From: Candidatus Latescibacterota bacterium
GTDB lineage: Bacteria > JAAXHH01 > JABIQT01
Assembly (NCBI GenBank): GCA_018667995.1
Contig: JABIQT010000665.1
Coordinates: forward strand, 1-10,305
Length of the DNA stretch: 10,305 nt
Direction: 5' to 3'
Position 1 is the stretch's first letter, and the number at the start of each line of letters is the position of its first letter. The translations under genes and the position numbers were made by a program. Below, piece by piece: positions 2,744 to 10,305 of the stretch. The notes beneath the pieces were generated by a model that saw nothing but the letters and a program-made list of their open reading frames with translations, made no database searches and was not told where the DNA came from.

Positions 2744-4888
2744 ATGGAAGGTCGCGTACTGATCGTCGAGAATGACCCGACGGTCCTTAAATTGGCAACG
2801 GATTTTCTCCAGTATGATGGTCATGATGTGATGACGGCTGGAGACGGGGAAGAGGGACTCAAAATCTTCTCCGAAGGCGAATTTGACGTAGTGGTCACCG
2901 ACGTCAAGATGCCGAAGATGGATGGCATCGAGATGATGAAGGCCATTAAGGCCCTTGAGCCGTCCATAGAGGTAATTGTACTTACGGGGTACGGCACCTT
3001 CGAGATGACAATAGAAGTCATCCGTAACGGTGGTTACGATTTTCTCCGTAAACCAGACGACGTCGCGCAACGTATTCGCCCTACCGTACAGCGGGCAATT
3101 GAGAAGCGCAGGTTGGGGCTAAAGAACGACGAGCTTGTGACTGCCCTGGAAGCGGCAAATAAGGACCTGGAGGCCCGGGTAGTCGAGAAAACGCAGGAAG
3201 CCAGTCGGCTTGGCGCCCAACATGCCGTGACTCGCATTCTCGCCGAATCGACATCGCTCGCCGACGCGACTCCAAAGGTAATTACAGCCATGTTGGACAG
3301 TATGGGCTGGGCTTTAGGAGCTATTTGGAGTGTTGATCGATTCGCATCGCTGTTACGATGTGAAGGTCTCAAACACGCCTCAAAAGACGATCTGTCAGGT
3401 TTCGCTGGGCGGCACAGAGAAGAGAGTTTCTCGACGGGTATAGGGCTGCCAGGGAGTGTATGGAAGAGCCGGCAACATGTGCTGGTTCCTGCATCCTCGG
3501 ACACGGCGGAGTCCAATTCCACGTCGCCTCCCGGTTATTCCGGGATAGGATTTCCTGTGGTGCTGGGTAACGAAGTGCTGGGCGTCATTGAGTTCTACAA
3601 CGAACAAATCCAGCAACCGGACGAAAACCTGCTTCGTATGATGACTGCAATTGGCAGTCAGCTAGGTCACTTTATCGAACGAGAGCGGCTTGAAGAACAG
3701 TTTCGACAGTCGCAGAAGATGGAGGCGATTGGACGGCTTGCTGGTGGGATTGCCCATGACTTCAACAATTTGTTAACATCCGTCATTGGCTATGCCCACC
3801 TAATCGAAAAACAGCTCGAACCCAATACCACCATACACCGAAACGCTGGCCAGATTCAGAAAACAGGTCTCAGAGCGGCTTCGTTGATCCAGCAGCTTCT
3901 GGCATTCAGTCGTCGTCAGGTACTAAAGCCTGATATTCTGGACGTGAACGATATCATCTCAGGAGTAGACTCCATGCTCGGACGTCTGCTTCCTGACACC
4001 ATCGTCCTTAAGACCAATCTGAGCACTTCGCTGGAACCCGTGTTCGCCGACCAGACGCAGATTGAGCAGGTAGTACTTAATCTGGCCGTAAACGCTCGTG
4101 ATGCGATGACTTCGGGTGGCATCCTATCCATAGAGACATCCAAAACCGTCCTGGACGAACACGCAGCACGTATCATCAGCGCCGAGCCTGGTGAATATGT
4201 TCGTATTCTCGTGAATGATACCGGTCACGGTATGGATGAATCTGTCCAGGCGCATCTCTTCGAGCCGTTTTTTACGACCAAACCAAAGGGAAAAGGTACC
4301 GGACTGGGACTGGCCACAGTTTACGGTATCGTAACGCAGAGCGGCGGTCAGATAACAGTCAAGAGTTCCCCCAATGAAGGGGCTACTTTTACGGTGTATC
4401 TACCTGTCGCTCAACCCGATGAGGCCGTTGATCAGGTTCCAGAGCCCCCTGCAATACCTGTGACCCGCCGCGATTCCCACGCAGGTTCGGAGACCATTCT
4501 GCTTGTGGAAGATGAAGATGAAGTTCGGGATATGGCTAAGCAGATTATCGAAGAAGCGGGTTATACCGTGCTGGAAGCTGAGAATGGCATTGATGCTCTG
4601 GCATTGACTGAGAAGAACGGTGACACAATTCACCTCGTTCTGACAGACGTAGTCATGCCCATGATGAATGGCGATGAACTGGCGGAGCGCCTGATCCGCT
4701 CCCGGCCATCAACAAGGATCATTTTCATGTCGGGTTATGCCGATGAGGCGCTGACAGAACACAACGTCTTTGAGTCGGGCATCTTCCTCTTGCAGAAGCC
4801 CTTTACGCCAGACGATCTTCTTGAGAAAATCCGAGAAGAGCTTGATTTGCCTAAGCCCTCGCACCAACGAAGTGTTGGTCAACGTTAA
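2744..4888 (+). CDS. Soluble hybrid sensor histidine kinase: REC-GAF-HisKA-HATPase-REC
   Basis: This 714-residue kinase has no membrane segment and should sense a cytoplasmic signal. Residues 4-120 are a receiver with phospho-acceptor Asp53 ([10 protein letters not shown]), Thr81 and Lys103. A short coiled stretch (about 125-155) leads to a GAF-like domain (about 158-312). The dimerisation helix carries His338 in [12 protein letters not shown]. The ATPase domain shows an N box [10 protein letters not shown] (446-455), a G1 box DTGHGM (492-497), FEPFFTTK (506-513) and a glycine-rich lid GKGTGLGLA (517-525). After a proline-rich linker a second receiver (583-700) has acidic residues 589-592, Asp635 (TDVVMP), Ser663 and Lys685. 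In receiver 1 the acidic pocket reads E9-N10-D11, with Asn where the second Mg-binding Asp usually lies. The start has GAGG 7 nt upstream. No HPt domain or DNA-binding output domain is present, so the output partner is elsewhere. It is probably the first gene of an operon with the epimerase and sixA. Confidence 0.93.
4863..4879 (+). other. Short hairpin at the 3' end of the kinase gene
   Basis: ACCAAC (4863-4868) and GTTGGT (4874-4879) form a perfect 6-bp stem with a 5-nt loop inside the last kinase codons. No T tract follows, so it is unlikely to terminate. It could affect mRNA stability or coupling across the 24-nt gap to the epimerase gene, or be chance. Confidence 0.2.
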
Positions 4889-4912: not shown

Positions 4913-5962
4913 ATGCGATTTATTGCTGAACCCATAGGACTTGATCTGATTCATAGCTTCCAGATCGCGCGTTCCTCCGACACAAAAAAACAAAATGTGC
5001 TTGTCTCTCTGACGGATAGCGGAATGGTTGGGGTCGGAGAAGCAGCGCCCTCTGCCTATTACGGAGAGAGTCAGTCCGGCGTGGTCGACGCGCTGAGACC
5101 TGCCTACGAAATCCTCTCCGAAGACCCTCTGAACATGGAACGTCTGGATCGAAAGATTTGCGCGACCGTCCCGAATAGCGCAGCCGCCCGAGCTGCTTTA
5201 GATATTGCTTTGCATGACCTCGTTGCTCAGAAGCTAAGAATCCCCCTCTACCGCTACTTTGGACTGCATAGTGACGATACGCCCCTGACATCGTTCACCA
5301 TCGGAATAGATTCGCTGGATATTATTCGTCGAAAGACACGGGAGGCATCCCAGTACCCGATTCTGAAGGTAAAGCTTGGCGCGGGAAACGACCTGGACAT
5401 CGTGAAGACTATCCGTCTGGAGAGCGACGCGGTGATCAGAATAGACGCTAATGCGGGGTGGACGGTCCCCCAAGCGACTGCCCTGATTCCGAAATTGGCT
5501 GACCTGGGTGTCGAGTTGATAGAACAGCCACTACCAGCTGAGGACTATGATGGCCTGAGGCGGCTGCGTATCAACTCTCCCCTACCAATTTTCGCCGATG
5601 AGAGCGTGAAGACGGCTGCGGACGTCCCACGACTGGCAGGTTGTGTGGATGGTGTCAATATCAAACTGATGAAGACCGGTGGCTTACGGGAGGCTCTCCG
5701 ACTCATACACTGTGCAAGGGCCCACGATATGCAGGTTATGCTGGGGTGCATGATCGAGACTTCGGTGGCCGTGACTGCCGCGGCACACCTGTCACCCTTG
5801 GCCGATTACGCAGATCTGGATGGTAACCTCTTAATAGCAAATGACCCATACATTGGTGTGGGGGTGGAAGATGGAAAGCTGGTACTGCCGGATAGCCCCG
5901 GGCTCGGAATAAGAGAAGCGGATGACCGTGCACAATGTACAAGGCCGGGGGAAGAACTATGA
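4913..5962 (+). CDS. L-Ala-D/L-Glu epimerase (dipeptide epimerase, enolase superfamily, MLE subgroup)
   Basis: This 349-residue enzyme should epimerise L-Ala-D-Glu, the dipeptide released from murein peptides, to L-Ala-L-Glu for further degradation. The lid domain holds GVGEAAPS (40-47). The barrel carries the paired lysines KVK (Lys152, Lys154), metal ligands Asp178 (DAN), Glu204 (EQPLP) and Asp229 (ADES), and general base Lys251 (NIKLMKTGG). The DLD motif (Asp301, Asp303) corresponds to the acidic pair that binds the dipeptide amino group in characterised Ala-Glu epimerases of the YkfB/YcjG type, which supports this specificity over other MLE-subgroup activities. Other hydrophobic dipeptides remain possible. 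ATG 4913 lies 24 nt after the kinase stop with no clear Shine-Dalgarno, so translation may depend on upstream ribosomes. The C-terminal 15 residues are polar and appear to be a non-conserved tail. Confidence 0.9.
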   Translation: MRFIAEPIGLDLIHSFQIARSSDTKKQNVLVSLTDSGMVGVGEAAPSAYYGESQSGVVDALRPAYEILSEDPLNMERLDRKICATVPNSAAARAALDIALHDLVAQKLRIPLYRYFGLHSDDTPLTSFTIGIDSLDIIRRKTREASQYPILKVKLGAGNDLDIVKTIRLESDAVIRIDANAGWTVPQATALIPKLADLGVELIEQPLPAEDYDGLRRLRINSPLPIFADESVKTAADVPRLAGCVDGVNIKLMKTGGLREALRLIHCARAHDMQVMLGCMIETSVAVTAAAHLSPLADYADLDGNLLIANDPYIGVGVEDGKLVLPDSPGLGIREADDRAQCTRPGEEL

Positions 5963-6480: not shown

Positions 6481-7221
6481 TTATGGTGTCTCTGTGTCCT
6501 CAAGGGACTCCAGGCGTAGCTCTCCGTCGACCATTATTCCAAATGTAAAAAAGCGGACCCAGTCCCCCAGGTTCAGATAGATTTTGTCGCCTTCCTTCTG
6601 CAGGTCCGGTTTGTGCACGTGACCGAAAACCACACAGTCATATCGTTCCTTAAGGTGCTTTTTTGCGAGTTCCCTGTACGCCTGGACTGGGCTCCATGAT
6701 GAGGGGGCCGCATGTCTTCTACTTGCACCCGAGATTGTACGCGCCAGCCAAACGGCCACATCTGGATGGATCCATTGAAAGAGCCAGATATTCAAGCGAT
6801 TATGAAGGATCTTGCGCATGAGACGGTAGTTCCAGTCTTTGGAAATCAGACCATCTCCGTGGCAGATTAGCATCTTCTTGCCCTGATGGGAGACTTCCAG
6901 CTGTCCATAGACCGTCTCTACGCCAACCTGCTCGTCAAGAAACGACCCTAGCCAAAAATCATGGTTGCCAGCTAGATACACTATTCTGGTGCCACTTTCT
7001 GCAAGGCCGGCCAGCTCATGAAGAACGGCAAAATGCTGTTTGAGTATGACCGTCCGATATTCGAACCAGAAATCGAACAAATCACCCACGATATAGAGCA
7101 GTTTAGTCCGACCGCGCAAACCTCGTAGAAAAGGCAGGAGGCGTTCCGTTTTATAGGACTCAGCCTGCTGAGAGGCAGCGCCCAAATGAGCGTCGGAGAT
7201 AAAGTAGATGGGATCAGACAT
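6481..7221 (-). CDS. lpxH: LpxH-like UDP-2,3-diacylglucosamine diphosphatase
   Basis: This 246-residue calcineurin-like metallophosphoesterase should hydrolyse UDP-2,3-diacylglucosamine to lipid X and UMP at the cytoplasmic face of the inner membrane, step four of lipid A synthesis. Metal-site motifs are SDAHLG (9-14; Asp10, His12), GDLFDFW (46-52; Asp47), GNHDFW (85-90; Asn86, His87), CHGDG (120-124; His121) and GHVHKP (200-205; His201, His203). The helical insertion around 140-165 (LNIWLFQWIHPD) is the hydrophobic lid expected to hold acyl chains. GNHD and HGDGL differ from the GNRD of the Escherichia coli enzyme and resemble Bacteroidota-type homologues. I chose ATG 7221 over a GTG at 7296: the predicted transcription start lies close to the GTG, and family homology begins at MSDPIYFISDAH. 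No Shine-Dalgarno is evident before 7221. Confidence 0.87.
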   Translation of the reverse strand: MSDPIYFISDAHLGAASQQAESYKTERLLPFLRGLRGRTKLLYIVGDLFDFWFEYRTVILKQHFAVLHELAGLAESGTRIVYLAGNHDFWLGSFLDEQVGVETVYGQLEVSHQGKKMLICHGDGLISKDWNYRLMRKILHNRLNIWLFQWIHPDVAVWLARTISGASRRHAAPSSWSPVQAYRELAKKHLKERYDCVVFGHVHKPDLQKEGDKIYLNLGDWVRFFTFGIMVDGELRLESLEDTETP

Positions 7222-7297
7222 AGTGCGGATGGGGTAGACCTTCAATCGTCCTTCGGATGGGGGATTATTCAAGTATAGATTTTTCCCTGTGAACACT

Positions 7298-7313
7298 GCG
7301 GAATATATTCCGC
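7298..7313. promoter_or_regulatory. Perfect 16-bp palindrome GCGGAATATATTCCGC over the lpxH -10 box, possible operator
   Basis: The 16 bases are an exact inverted repeat and contain the whole predicted -10 hexamer of the minus-strand promoter. A dimeric protein bound here would exclude RNA polymerase. The core ATATATTCC recurs once at 7409-7417 in the same intergenic region. I do not recognise the cognate regulator. Confidence 0.45.
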
Positions 7314-7381: not shown

Positions 7382-7466
7382 GGTGATGTGGATCTTAAAT
7401 ATAAGAAGATATATTCCTATTTATATTAGCCGACCACATATGCGCCTCCAGCTACTACTTTTTTAG

Positions 7467-7495
7467 TTGACACGATTTCTAAATATCGGTAAGTA
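7467..7495 (+). promoter_or_regulatory. Candidate sigma70-type promoter of the BlaI-type / M56 operon
   Basis: A perfect -35 TTGACA (7467-7472) is followed after 17 nt by TAAGTA (7490-7495). Transcription would begin near 7502, leaving a leader of about 49 nt. Half-sites CTACTT (7455-7460) and AAGTAG (7491-7496) flank the promoter as a wide dyad, and TGACAC overlaps the -35 box; both are possible repressor contacts. Confidence 0.55.
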
Positions 7496-7550: not shown

Positions 7551-7940
7551 ATGGGACGACAAAAGATATCGGCACTAACGGACCTTGAACTTGATGTCAT
7601 GAAAATCGTTTGGAAATATCGAACGGCAACAGTGCGACAGATCGTAGACGATCTCGGGGCCTTTCGGCCATTAGCCTACACTACGGTCCAGACCGTGTTG
7701 ACGATACTCACCCAAAAGGGGTTTGTTGAGCACACGACTTGCGGTCGCGCCTACGTCTATAGCGCATTAGTGCAATCGCACGGTATCCGAAAGGAGACCG
7801 TCAATGCGGTTGTAGACCGTCTGTTTGAAGGCTCGCGCCAATCTCTCATGTTGCATCTGATAGATTCTGATTCGCTCACTCCGGACGAGGCCTCGGAATT
7901 GAGGCAGCTCCTGGACCGGAAAATCCAAGAGGCCGACTAA
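7551..7940 (+). CDS. BlaI/MecI/CopY-family winged-helix repressor
   Basis: This 129-residue protein should bind DNA as a dimer and repress its own operon and possibly distant genes until it is cleaved or released. The N-terminal winged helix covers residues 7-75: LTDLELDVMKIVWKY (9-23) is the family opening, AYTTVQTVLTILTQKGF (42-58) is the recognition helix region, and GRAYVYSAL (65-73) is the wing. Residues 78-125 are the helical dimerisation part, where BlaI and MecI are cut by their sensor protease. The Asn-Phe cut site of staphylococcal BlaI/MecI is not present at the equivalent stretch (LMLHLIDS), so a cut site, if any, differs. No C-terminal copper-binding Cys motif like that of CopY is present. 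The start has GGAGG 10 nt upstream and GAGG directly adjacent. The stop overlaps the M56 start as TAATG, indicating coupled translation of a repressor-protease pair. Confidence 0.93.
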   Translation: MGRQKISALTDLELDVMKIVWKYRTATVRQIVDDLGAFRPLAYTTVQTVLTILTQKGFVEHTTCGRAYVYSALVQSHGIRKETVNAVVDRLFEGSRQSLMLHLIDSDSLTPDEASELRQLLDRKIQEAD

Positions 7941-9892
7941 TGACTGACACCGTACTGGTGTTGTCTGAGCTTGATTCTCTAGGACGCAGCATTACAGACA
8001 CGTTTCTCCTGCCCAGCATAGAGGCTTTGCTTCTGGGATTGATAGTCTGGGTTGGACTGAGAATCAATCCCAACGCTTCTCCAAGAATTCGACACCTTCT
8101 CTGGTTGTTTGTGATCGTTAAGCCATTGATTTCGGTGGCAATTCCCCTGCGCGGCCCGCTTCCCCTTCCAGTAGCCGCCATGCAGGGAGATAGCTCAGCG
8201 GCATTGACAGTATCATTGGGATCGGCCGAGACCTGGGGACAGTATTTGTACGGCGGAGTGGCCATAATATGGGTAACATGCATGCTGGGTGCGGCGGTCT
8301 GGAAAGCGGCAGGATACCTGGTAGTTGCTACCCGGGCCCGACAAACATTACCGATTCCGGTGCCCTGGGTAGAAGCGCTATTTTCACGGTGCCAGGAATT
8401 GGCAGGAATAACCAAGCATGTCGATCTAAGAATGTCTGATGATTTCGCTGGTCCGACGCTCATTGCGGTCGGGCGTCCGATCGTAGTTATGCCTTCCTGG
8501 TGCATGATTGATTTAACTCCTCAAGAGCTCAAACAAGTATTCCTGCATGAGCTCATGCACTACAGTCGCCGAGACCACTTGACACTATTTCTCGTACAGA
8601 TCGTGAAAGTCTGCTTCTTTTTTCATCCCCTTGTCTGGTATGTTGGGCGAAGGATTGATAGCGAGGCCGAGAGGGCATGCGATATGGCGGTGGTTGATGT
8701 TTCACGTCGGCCACACAGTTACGCTTCCAGTCTCCTGAAGGTAGCCGAAGGGCCTGTTTCTCGCGGATGGCGAGGGGTTCTTGAATTGGCGAAGTCAGCA
8801 TCTTTGACTGCTGTACGCATAAAGGAGGTGCTGGGGGATTTTGGCGGAAATCAATACGGTTTAAGCCGAAAGGGAATGCTGGTTCTCATGCTTTGTGGTT
8901 CCGCCAGCGTTCTTCCGTTCTTCCATATACCTGTCTTGGAAATGGTGAATGACGTCGTGGGGGTTGCAGACTACGATCCTGAGTCACCGGAGGTCTCGAT
9001 CCTAAAATTGGATTCCGGCCCGCAATCGTCAGTGATGGTCGCACCGGAGATAAGCATCCCGTCGGTGGCAGCTATTGAAATGTCACCAATGGAGGCCTTT
9101 CACGGAACGCCACCTGTGGTCACTCAGTCGACCGTTGACGTTCATAATAACGTCAGACCGCTTGCTCGACGATCGCCGGCTGCGGCATTGACGATTTCCC
9201 GGACACAGAGCACCGATAATCATTTGAATGGACCGGAGCAGGTGATCAGCACCGCAATGCTGGGTCTGTCATCAGTGAGTAAAACAGGTGGAGCCAGGCG
9301 GGCGTCGGATCGGCAACTCGTCGTCCCCGGGCATATTGAGGTGCAGAGCATTGGGCAGAATACCTCCAATCAGGGCATGTCACAGTCCATGTCGCTTCGT
9401 GCAGGTTACTTCGTAACGAAAGAACACGAGTTTGGTGGTGTTCTTTCTGTAGTTAGTCCTACAGGCACGGACATACAGGAGTCGGTGCGGGAGCGGAGCG
9501 CGCCTGCTCCGAGCTACTCAGGGCGCGTCTCAGCCAGACGAAACGTGACGCCGAGTCTGGGGCCAGGTCGTCAGTCGCTGATTAATGGTTCCTTACTGGG
9601 TGAGTCGGAAGATACAGAGGAGCAGGCCTCGTTTGAAACCCTGCGGCTCGGTGCCTTCTATCGGTACAATGTTACAGGTCTGAGCAGTGCTATGGTTCCA
9701 TTTATCGGTGTTGGGACCGGAGTTGAACTGCGCACAGGAAGAAATCCCGTGCTTGTTGATGGCGGTGGAGGCCTGCGTTGCTTCTTGACCGGTCGATCTG
9801 CCGTGGTAGTGCAGGTGGACTATGTCAGAGATATCGTGTTTTCTAACCGGTCCAGAGTCAATGCCTCACTCGGGTTCTCGACTATTTTCTAA
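7940..9892 (+). CDS. BlaR1-like M56 membrane metalloprotease with a C-terminal outer-membrane beta-barrel-like domain
   Basis: This 650-residue protein pairs with the upstream repressor. Hydrophobic segments lie at about 22-42, 52-70, 101-130, 213-236 and 311-332. The M56 protease signature is complete: HELMHYSRRDHL (203-214; zinc ligands His203 and His207, catalytic Glu204), HPLVWYVGRR (229-238) and EAERACD (242-248; Glu244 as likely third ligand). After the last membrane segment, residues 333-479 are a Ser/Thr/Pro/Gln-rich linker without Cys. From about 480 the sequence reads as an outer-membrane beta-barrel: MSLRAGYFVTKEHEFGGVLS (484-503), LRLGAFYRYNV (568-578), VPFIGVGTGVEL (586-597), DGGGGLRCFLT (607-617), VVVQVDYVRD (622-631) and a closing strand RVNASLGFSTIF whose last residue is Phe650. 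BlaR1's penicillin-binding sensor motifs (SxxK, SxN, KTG) are not evident. The frame is unbroken. A role as sensor protease is inferred from the family; the barrel fusion makes the signal unclear. Confidence 0.88.
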   Translation: MTDTVLVLSELDSLGRSITDTFLLPSIEALLLGLIVWVGLRINPNASPRIRHLLWLFVIVKPLISVAIPLRGPLPLPVAAMQGDSSAALTVSLGSAETWGQYLYGGVAIIWVTCMLGAAVWKAAGYLVVATRARQTLPIPVPWVEALFSRCQELAGITKHVDLRMSDDFAGPTLIAVGRPIVVMPSWCMIDLTPQELKQVFLHELMHYSRRDHLTLFLVQIVKVCFFFHPLVWYVGRRIDSEAERACDMAVVDVSRRPHSYASSLLKVAEGPVSRGWRGVLELAKSASLTAVRIKEVLGDFGGNQYGLSRKGMLVLMLCGSASVLPFFHIPVLEMVNDVVGVADYDPESPEVSILKLDSGPQSSVMVAPEISIPSVAAIEMSPMEAFHGTPPVVTQSTVDVHNNVRPLARRSPAAALTISRTQSTDNHLNGPEQVISTAMLGLSSVSKTGGARRASDRQLVVPGHIEVQSIGQNTSNQGMSQSMSLRAGYFVTKEHEFGGVLSVVSPTGTDIQESVRERSAPAPSYSGRVSARRNVTPSLGPGRQSLINGSLLGESEDTEEQASFETLRLGAFYRYNVTGLSSAMVPFIGVGTGVELRTGRNPVLVDGGGGLRCFLTGRSAVVVQVDYVRDIVFSNRSRVNASLGFSTIF

Positions 9893-9934: not shown

Positions 9935-9980
9935 CGAATCGGCGAAACTCTGTGAATAAATAGAGGGTTTCGCCGATTTG
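9935..9980. terminator. Long hairpin between the M56-barrel gene and the nucleotidyltransferase gene
   Basis: Bases 9935-9951 pair with 9964-9980 around a 12-nt loop. The stem is about 17 bp with an 11-bp perfect core (AATCGGCGAAA with TTTCGCCGATT) and two G-U pairs. It is by far the strongest hairpin noticed in the window. It lacks an adjacent T tract on either strand, so it is not a textbook intrinsic terminator. It ends 14 nt before the next gene's Shine-Dalgarno, so it may be a rho-assisted or attenuation structure in that leader, or a processing site protecting the upstream mRNA end. Confidence 0.5.
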
Positions 9981-10003: not shown

Positions 10004-10305
10004 GTGGTCAAGACAGCACTTATAATTGCAGCGGGAGCAGGTTCCCGACTGCAGGAAGTAACCGGCAGCATACCAAAGCCACTGTTACACTTGGCTGGCT
10101 TGCCGCTACTCAAACGAATTATACTAACGGCCGCCAAGGTAGGTATAGAACGATTCGTAATAGTTACGGGTCATTCTGCCGAGCAGTTCCATGATGTATT
10201 GGGCGGTGACGTAGATCTACAGGGACTTGTTGATTGGGTGCATAATGATGATTGGAGGCTGCCAAACGGCATGTCTGTTCTGGCTGCCCGGTCGCGGATC
10301 GCGGA
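10004..10305 (+). CDS. Nucleotidyltransferase (NTP_transferase family; cytidylyltransferase-like), 3' truncated by window edge
   Basis: The first 100 codons are visible. The N-terminal signature LIIAAGAGSRL (residues 6-16) followed by IPKPLLHLAGLPLL is the nucleotide-binding loop of sugar-phosphate nucleotidyltransferases. IERFVIVTGH and NDDWRLPNGMSVLAAR follow. The N-x-NG-SVLAAR stretch resembles CTP:inositol-1-phosphate and CTP:phosphocholine cytidylyltransferases more than glucose- or mannose-1-phosphate enzymes, but the substrate-binding part is outside the window. The GTG start at 10004 has AGGA 5 nt upstream; no ATG in this frame would preserve the nucleotide-binding loop. If the inositol-phosphate type is right, a CDP-alcohol phosphatidyltransferase domain or gene should follow. 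The product would be an activated alcohol or sugar for envelope lipids or polysaccharides. Confidence 0.85.
   Translation, partial: MVKTALIIAAGAGSRLQEVTGSIPKPLLHLAGLPLLKRIILTAAKVGIERFVIVTGHSAEQFHDVLGGDVDLQGLVDWVHNDDWRLPNGMSVLAARSRIA

Follow-up and report, generated by a model that had tools for sequence, protein, structure and literature searches.

The window analysed here, 10,305 nucleotides long, is the entire 10.3-kb contig of a metagenome-assembled genome from the phylum Latescibacterota. On its forward strand, a gene encoding a BlaI/MecI-type repressor of 129 amino acids (7551..7940) is followed by a gene at 7940..9892, the start ATG of which overlaps the repressor stop codon by one base (TAATG). 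The second gene joins an M56 protease, a linker and a β-barrel in a single open reading frame of 650 residues with no internal stops. The initial annotation had read protease and barrel as one unbroken frame, and had named the absence of the fusion from all relatives as a sign of an assembly join. The frame stood, and the absence was contradicted: a whole-genome search found the fusion in 16/16 available genomes of the phylum, representing five genera, as a single full-length frame in 15 of them and frameshifted in one (G015). The frameshifted copy lies at L032 3070-5078. That two genes had been joined by an artefact of assembly or annotation could be suspected from the extent of the contig; however, independent assemblies from five genera share the fusion. 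This explanation is therefore refuted and its probability is negligible.

A scan with the alignment recovered 11 fusion loci, while an earlier scan with one sequence had recovered none. No further barrel fusion was found among 84,980 species with pattern scans, which may miss distant relatives, and this search otherwise gave just three M56 proteins, all without a barrel. In each relative, the identity to the window sequence was 55-65% in the protease and 51-68% in the barrel strands, but only 16-23% in the linker. Both ends of the protein are thus under constraint.

The N-terminal half of the fusion protein belongs to the M56 family. Residues 23-274 (8006..8761, + strand), comprising N-terminal transmembrane helices and a protease predicted to be cytoplasmic, matched PF05569 (Peptidase_M56) with an E of 5.6e-34 and 118 bits against the Pfam cut-off of 31, and contain both the HExxH and the ExxxD motif, in agreement with the BlaR1-like protease (HELMH, EAERACD) proposed initially. 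A PDB sequence search aligned the protein with the BlaR1 structure 8exs (E 6.5e-7), a cryo-EM structure that was the sole solved relative found by sequence. The HELMH zinc motif (H203/E204/H207 within residues 203-207; 8546..8560), the HExxH core of which is invariant in the alignment of relatives, aligns with H201ExxH205 of BlaR1, and the likewise invariant E244-R-A-C-D248 motif (8669..8683) aligns with E242xxxD246. The catalytic or supporting residues of BlaR1 are H201, H205, D210, E242, D246 and Y261 (PMC9834060); their counterparts H203, H207, D212, E244, D248 and Y261 are invariant here. As the cut site of the BlaI/MecI repressors also has a conserved counterpart in the partner protein (see below), the alignments indicate that the protease is likely to be active, with a substrate related to BlaI/MecI. 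The NCBIfam model blaR1_generic was the best NCBIfam match, though at 85.6 bits it missed the equivalog cut-off of 400.

The hydropathy peaks at the positions of TM1-TM4 and the charge pattern agree with the topology of BlaR1; hydropathy showed a further peak at residues 213-236, and the full-length model has low confidence. The predicted fourth transmembrane helix, at about residues 310-328 (8867..8923, + strand), coincides with a hydropathy peak and with a helix at 310-324 in the model. As noted at the outset, no penicillin-binding domain is evident, nor is a transpeptidase domain: residues 329-650 had no such match in Pfam, and the barrel occupies this position instead. The only M56 protein and the only BlaI-type protein of the genome that exceed the cut-offs are both encoded at the 7551-9892 locus. 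In one relative (G001), we observed a second BlaI/M56 pair, with the BlaI-type gene at L020 716-1105 and the M56 gene at L020 1102-2892 (+). The C-terminal part of that M56 protein consists of HEAT-like repeats (RKQAIFWLSQ) and is not a barrel, indicating that C-terminal domains of M56 proteins have been swapped within the phylum.

The repressor partner, also postulated initially, was identified by its match to PF03965 (Penicillinase_R; E 1.9e-33, 115.7 bits against the Pfam cut-off of 22.6), which assigns it to the BlaI/MecI family, and by its alignment with residues 7-123 of MecI (E 9.6e-16). BlaI/MecI are cut at N101-F102; the aligned position here is H102-L103, a pair that does not vary among five repressors. 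At all loci checked, the fusion gene comes after a BlaI-type repressor gene. At 7452..7469 (+ strand), 81 bp before the repressor start, there is an 18-bp imperfect inverted repeat, CTACTACTTTTTTAGTTG, a putative BlaI-type operator. In four of the five genera, the repeat CTACTANNNNNWTAGTTG was found at a distance of 65-82 bp from the repressor start, on its upstream side, by a pattern drawn from the window that was then matched without mismatches in the others, one position having been relaxed to W to accommodate L023; the repeat is degenerate (2-5 mismatches) in the large genus g3. In the 6.06-Mb genome containing the window, the pattern matches exactly nowhere but before the repressor gene, and the same holds for three other genera. 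In L024, the right half of the repeat overlaps the TTGACA of a TTGACA-17-TATGAT promoter; no sigma-70 promoter was found on the + strand of the window. The position of the repeat predicts autoregulation of the repressor-sensor pair through this putative operator. Near matches elsewhere in the same genome were no commoner than those of a control pattern, and thus we claim no regulon beyond the operon itself.

Between the fourth transmembrane helix and the barrel, residues 329-463 (8924..9328, + strand) form a linker that is predicted to be disordered (pLDDT mostly below 50). A long linker had been recognized from the start, but its length had been given as 147 residues; it has about 135 in the window, and 126-165 in all aligned relatives, never fewer than 126. 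Its sequence is poorly conserved except at R406-P407 and A439-x-x-G442. With about 0.35 nm of contour per residue, a linker of 126 residues has an estimated contour length of some 44 nm, which exceeds the usual periplasm of 20-25 nm. Conserved ends, a minimal length and a free sequence suggest a tether, and a tether to the outer membrane would be the plainest, though not the sole, reading of this pattern.

The C-terminal domain, residues 464-650 (9329..9889, + strand), was predicted from 11 sequences by AlphaFold2 as a closed, antiparallel, eight-stranded up-and-down barrel of the OmpA-like kind. The mean pLDDT of this model was 64, with blocks over the strands mostly at 64-88; a run with the full-length protein gave the same eight strands at a mean pLDDT of 48, that is, with low confidence. 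The best PDB matches of the barrel model in Foldseek were NspA, OmpA, PagL, OmpX and OprF. In VIA-align the top match was OprF (Z 17.7, rmsd 1.8 over 122 residues), followed by a designed transmembrane barrel, OmpA (Z 15.2), and NspA and OmpW (near 15). An outer-membrane-type barrel had been expected here, and a non-barrel fold had been named as evidence against it; the prediction yielded the barrel, but placed its start near residue 464 (base 9329) rather than at base 9377. Thus, the domain order proposed by the initial annotation (M56 protease, long linker, outer-membrane-type barrel, BlaI-type partner) is retained, with the start of the barrel and the length of the linker adjusted.

The surface of the barrel points in the same direction. 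The alternation of hydrophobicity along the strands exceeded that of shuffled sequences (p about 0.01). The outer face is 73% hydrophobic, and polar residues account for 50% of the inner face and Gly for 19%, percentages that are biased towards contrast because faces were assigned per strand by hydrophobicity, a bias for which the shuffle test allows. Invariant positions make up 21/46 of the inner face and 11/46 of the outer face. Such a barrel, hydrophobic outside and polar or glycine-rich inside, has the arrangement of an outer-membrane protein, the reverse of that of a lipocalin. The turns on the side of the termini are short (4, 7, and 6 or fewer residues), and on the opposite side strands 3 and 4 are connected by a disordered loop of 61 residues (506-566; 9455..9637, + strand), predicted to lie at the outer surface, with 12-25% identity against 51-68% in the strands; these loop lengths also fit an outer-membrane-type barrel. 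The last strand ends in SLGFSTIF (9866..9889, + strand), with the terminal Phe650 on the outer face. The pattern [ST]LG(F/V)S(A/T)IF ends 15/15 aligned sequences, conserving the terminal Phe and the Gly at -5; with Thr or Ala at -2, the β-signal is partial.

The profile search suggested initially for this region matched no Pfam barrel family: none of 11 members had a Pfam match to the barrel domain at an E of 10 or below. The PDB sequence matches of the barrel (E 0.34-1.5, e.g., V-ATPase subunit G) were rejected as chance. Weak matches to TIGR04565 (OMP_myx_plus, an outer-membrane barrel model) were obtained for 7/11 relatives (best E 1e-4), with the window member unmatched, and may be taken as independent support for an outer-membrane barrel. 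Proteins of the Omp85/BamA type are encoded in the genome, and a published description of Latescibacteria presents them as Gram-negative bacteria that carry LPS genes (PMC4454575). No separate gene of the barrel's family was found in the same genome.

The surroundings of the pair concern envelope lipids, as judged from an LpxH-like gene on one side and an inositol-phosphate/CDP-alcohol gene on the other. The divergent neighbour at 6481..7296 (- strand) encodes an LpxH-like metallophosphatase (PF00149), with LpxH as the best NCBIfam model (4.7e-31, below cut-off). The gene at 10004..10305 (+ strand) is truncated by the contig end; what remains is the 5' portion of a nucleotidyltransferase/CDP-alcohol phosphotransferase gene of the inositol-phosphate cytidylyltransferase-like kind (NTP_transf_3, 1.1e-10); its full-length relatives had NF041135 as the best NCBIfam match, below cut-off. 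Wherever the sequence of a relative extends that far, the gene after the fusion encodes a fused inositol-phosphate cytidylyltransferase/CDP-alcohol phosphotransferase, and in relatives this lipid-headgroup gene and the LpxH-like gene flank the repressor-fusion pair. The gap between the fusion and the lipid gene is 16-65 bp in most relatives, about 200 bp in L022 and 111 bp in the window, where it contains an inverted repeat with 15-nt arms and a 12-nt loop (9937..9978), strong and without a clear T run. This hairpin and the wider gap make the co-transcription of the two genes in the window uncertain. Past the lipid gene, L023 and L028 encode a flippase of the polysaccharide type and another CDP-alcohol phosphotransferase.

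Further features were observed around the locus. A perfect palindrome, GGAATATATTCC, at 7300-7311 immediately precedes the LpxH-like gene, and part of it recurs as GATATATTCC some 100 bp further along; the palindrome is possibly a site for another regulator. In L028, a collagen-repeat protein with a lipoprotein-like start (2898-4262) adjoins the LpxH-like gene. An enolase-superfamily gene at 4913-5962 of the window, closest to the cell-wall peptide recycling enzymes N-acetyl-D-Glu racemase DgcA and L-Ala-D/L-Glu epimerase, is kept near the pair in L023 and L028.

From the computed features, namely the fusion and its retention in the phylum, the catalytic motifs, the barrel fold, the minimal linker length, the paired repressor and the operator-like site, we infer a BlaR1-type anti-repressor in which the outer-membrane-type barrel would serve as the sensor, reading the state of the outer membrane or of the envelope lipids; we hold this account with moderate confidence. 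The N-terminal half would reside in the inner membrane with the protease towards the cytoplasm, the C-terminal half would be exported, and BAM would fold the barrel into the outer membrane. The linker would then cross the periplasm, bringing one chain into contact with both membranes. A change in the state of the barrel, such as failed insertion, altered lipids, a bound surface ligand or altered membrane spacing, would alter the fourth transmembrane helix and thereby activate the protease, which would cut the co-encoded BlaI-type repressor. The operon would be derepressed, with the repressor and the sensor joined in most relatives by the inositol-phosphate/CDP-alcohol gene a short distance downstream, so that the system would act as a switch for outer-envelope homeostasis. 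The linker of 126-165 residues and the outward hydrophobic pattern of the strands are consistent with placement in both membranes. That a single chain is indeed anchored in both at once, converting the outer-membrane state directly into repressor proteolysis, we propose more tentatively, as a claim somewhat short of an even chance. Among the conceivable signals, a specific surface ligand is less probable than the state of assembly or of the lipids, given that the lumen is conserved and the surface loop variable.

A narrower version of this account, compatible with it, is that the signal is a barrel stalled unfolded in the periplasm as a client of BAM, the protein thus reporting on quality control. 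With its C-terminal Phe, the barrel would be a client built into the sensor and hence a direct readout of BAM capacity, and the contrast between lumen and loop, arguing against a specific surface ligand, suits this version too; however, no chaperone or BAM gene adjoins the pair, the neighbours being lipid enzymes, and we regard it as possible but doubtful. The main competing explanation, which takes up the barrel release suggested in the initial annotation, separates the two halves: the linker would be cut in the periplasm, the barrel would become an ordinary outer-membrane protein, its loss would switch the protease, and the fusion would serve to couple the synthesis of the two. Proteins of this class are often subject to regulated proteolysis, and the disordered linker with its short conserved spots could accommodate a cut. 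Nevertheless, no recognized cleavage motif was identified, mere co-expression would need no fusion, and the single frame in 15 of 16 genomes, with no separate barrel gene of the family in this genome, makes such release unlikely.

Alternatively, the barrel might remain soluble in the periplasm as an avidin- or lipocalin-like ligand binder, comparable to the bile-salt sensor barrel of VtrA/VtrC. The fold comparison does list avidins, which are also eight-stranded (Z 11.5 and below), as well as VtrA/VtrC (Z 8.7), but its first 20 places by Z are taken exclusively by outer-membrane proteins and designed transmembrane barrels. The outward hydrophobicity, opposite to that of lipocalins, the conserved polar and glycine-rich interior, and the conserved terminal Phe with Gly at -5 also speak against solubility. 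We therefore consider this explanation quite improbable, and the role of a periplasmic ligand sensor, one of those proposed in the initial annotation, becomes less likely.

If the proposed sensing by an outer-membrane barrel is correct, the fusion illustrates how diderms put the BlaR1 module to further use by giving it new sensors, and how Sec/YidC and BAM both insert one protein becomes a question; the fusion could also be borrowed to report outer-membrane integrity. In E. coli, envelope stress systems relay outer-membrane signals through several proteins; to our knowledge, a one-chain link between barrel and protease would be the shortest outer-membrane-to-cytosol circuit. The initial annotation knew of no system of this layout, and we likewise found no description of an M56-barrel fusion in the open-licence literature searched, where PMC12578637 and PMC12864828 were false leads that matched by words only. 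The parts are of known kinds, and it is their combination that we did not find described in that literature.

The closest known systems are BlaR1-BlaI and MecR1-MecI of Staphylococcus aureus and Bacillus licheniformis, which likewise use an M56 gluzincin protease with HExxH and ExxxD motifs (PMC9834060). An adjoining BlaI-type repressor gene is shared with them, and the four predicted transmembrane helices and the putative extracytoplasmic C-terminal sensor would correspond to theirs. In contrast to BlaR1/MecR1, a long linker with an eight-stranded barrel of the outer-membrane type takes the place of the penicillin-binding sensor, the host is a diderm, and no beta-lactamase gene adjoins. The M56 protein of L020 has the same kind of protease and an adjoining BlaI-type gene, but differs in its non-barrel C-terminal part. 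With OmpA, OprF, NspA and OmpW the barrel shares the eight-stranded up-and-down fold, the outward hydrophobics and the terminal Phe. Those, however, exist as separate proteins from which a signal peptide is removed, whereas the barrel described here follows an inner-membrane protease and has no signal peptide of its own. In FecA-FecR and RcsF-IgaA, the state of the outer membrane is passed to an inner-membrane regulator by several proteins touching one another; in the present fusion, both ends would belong to a single chain.
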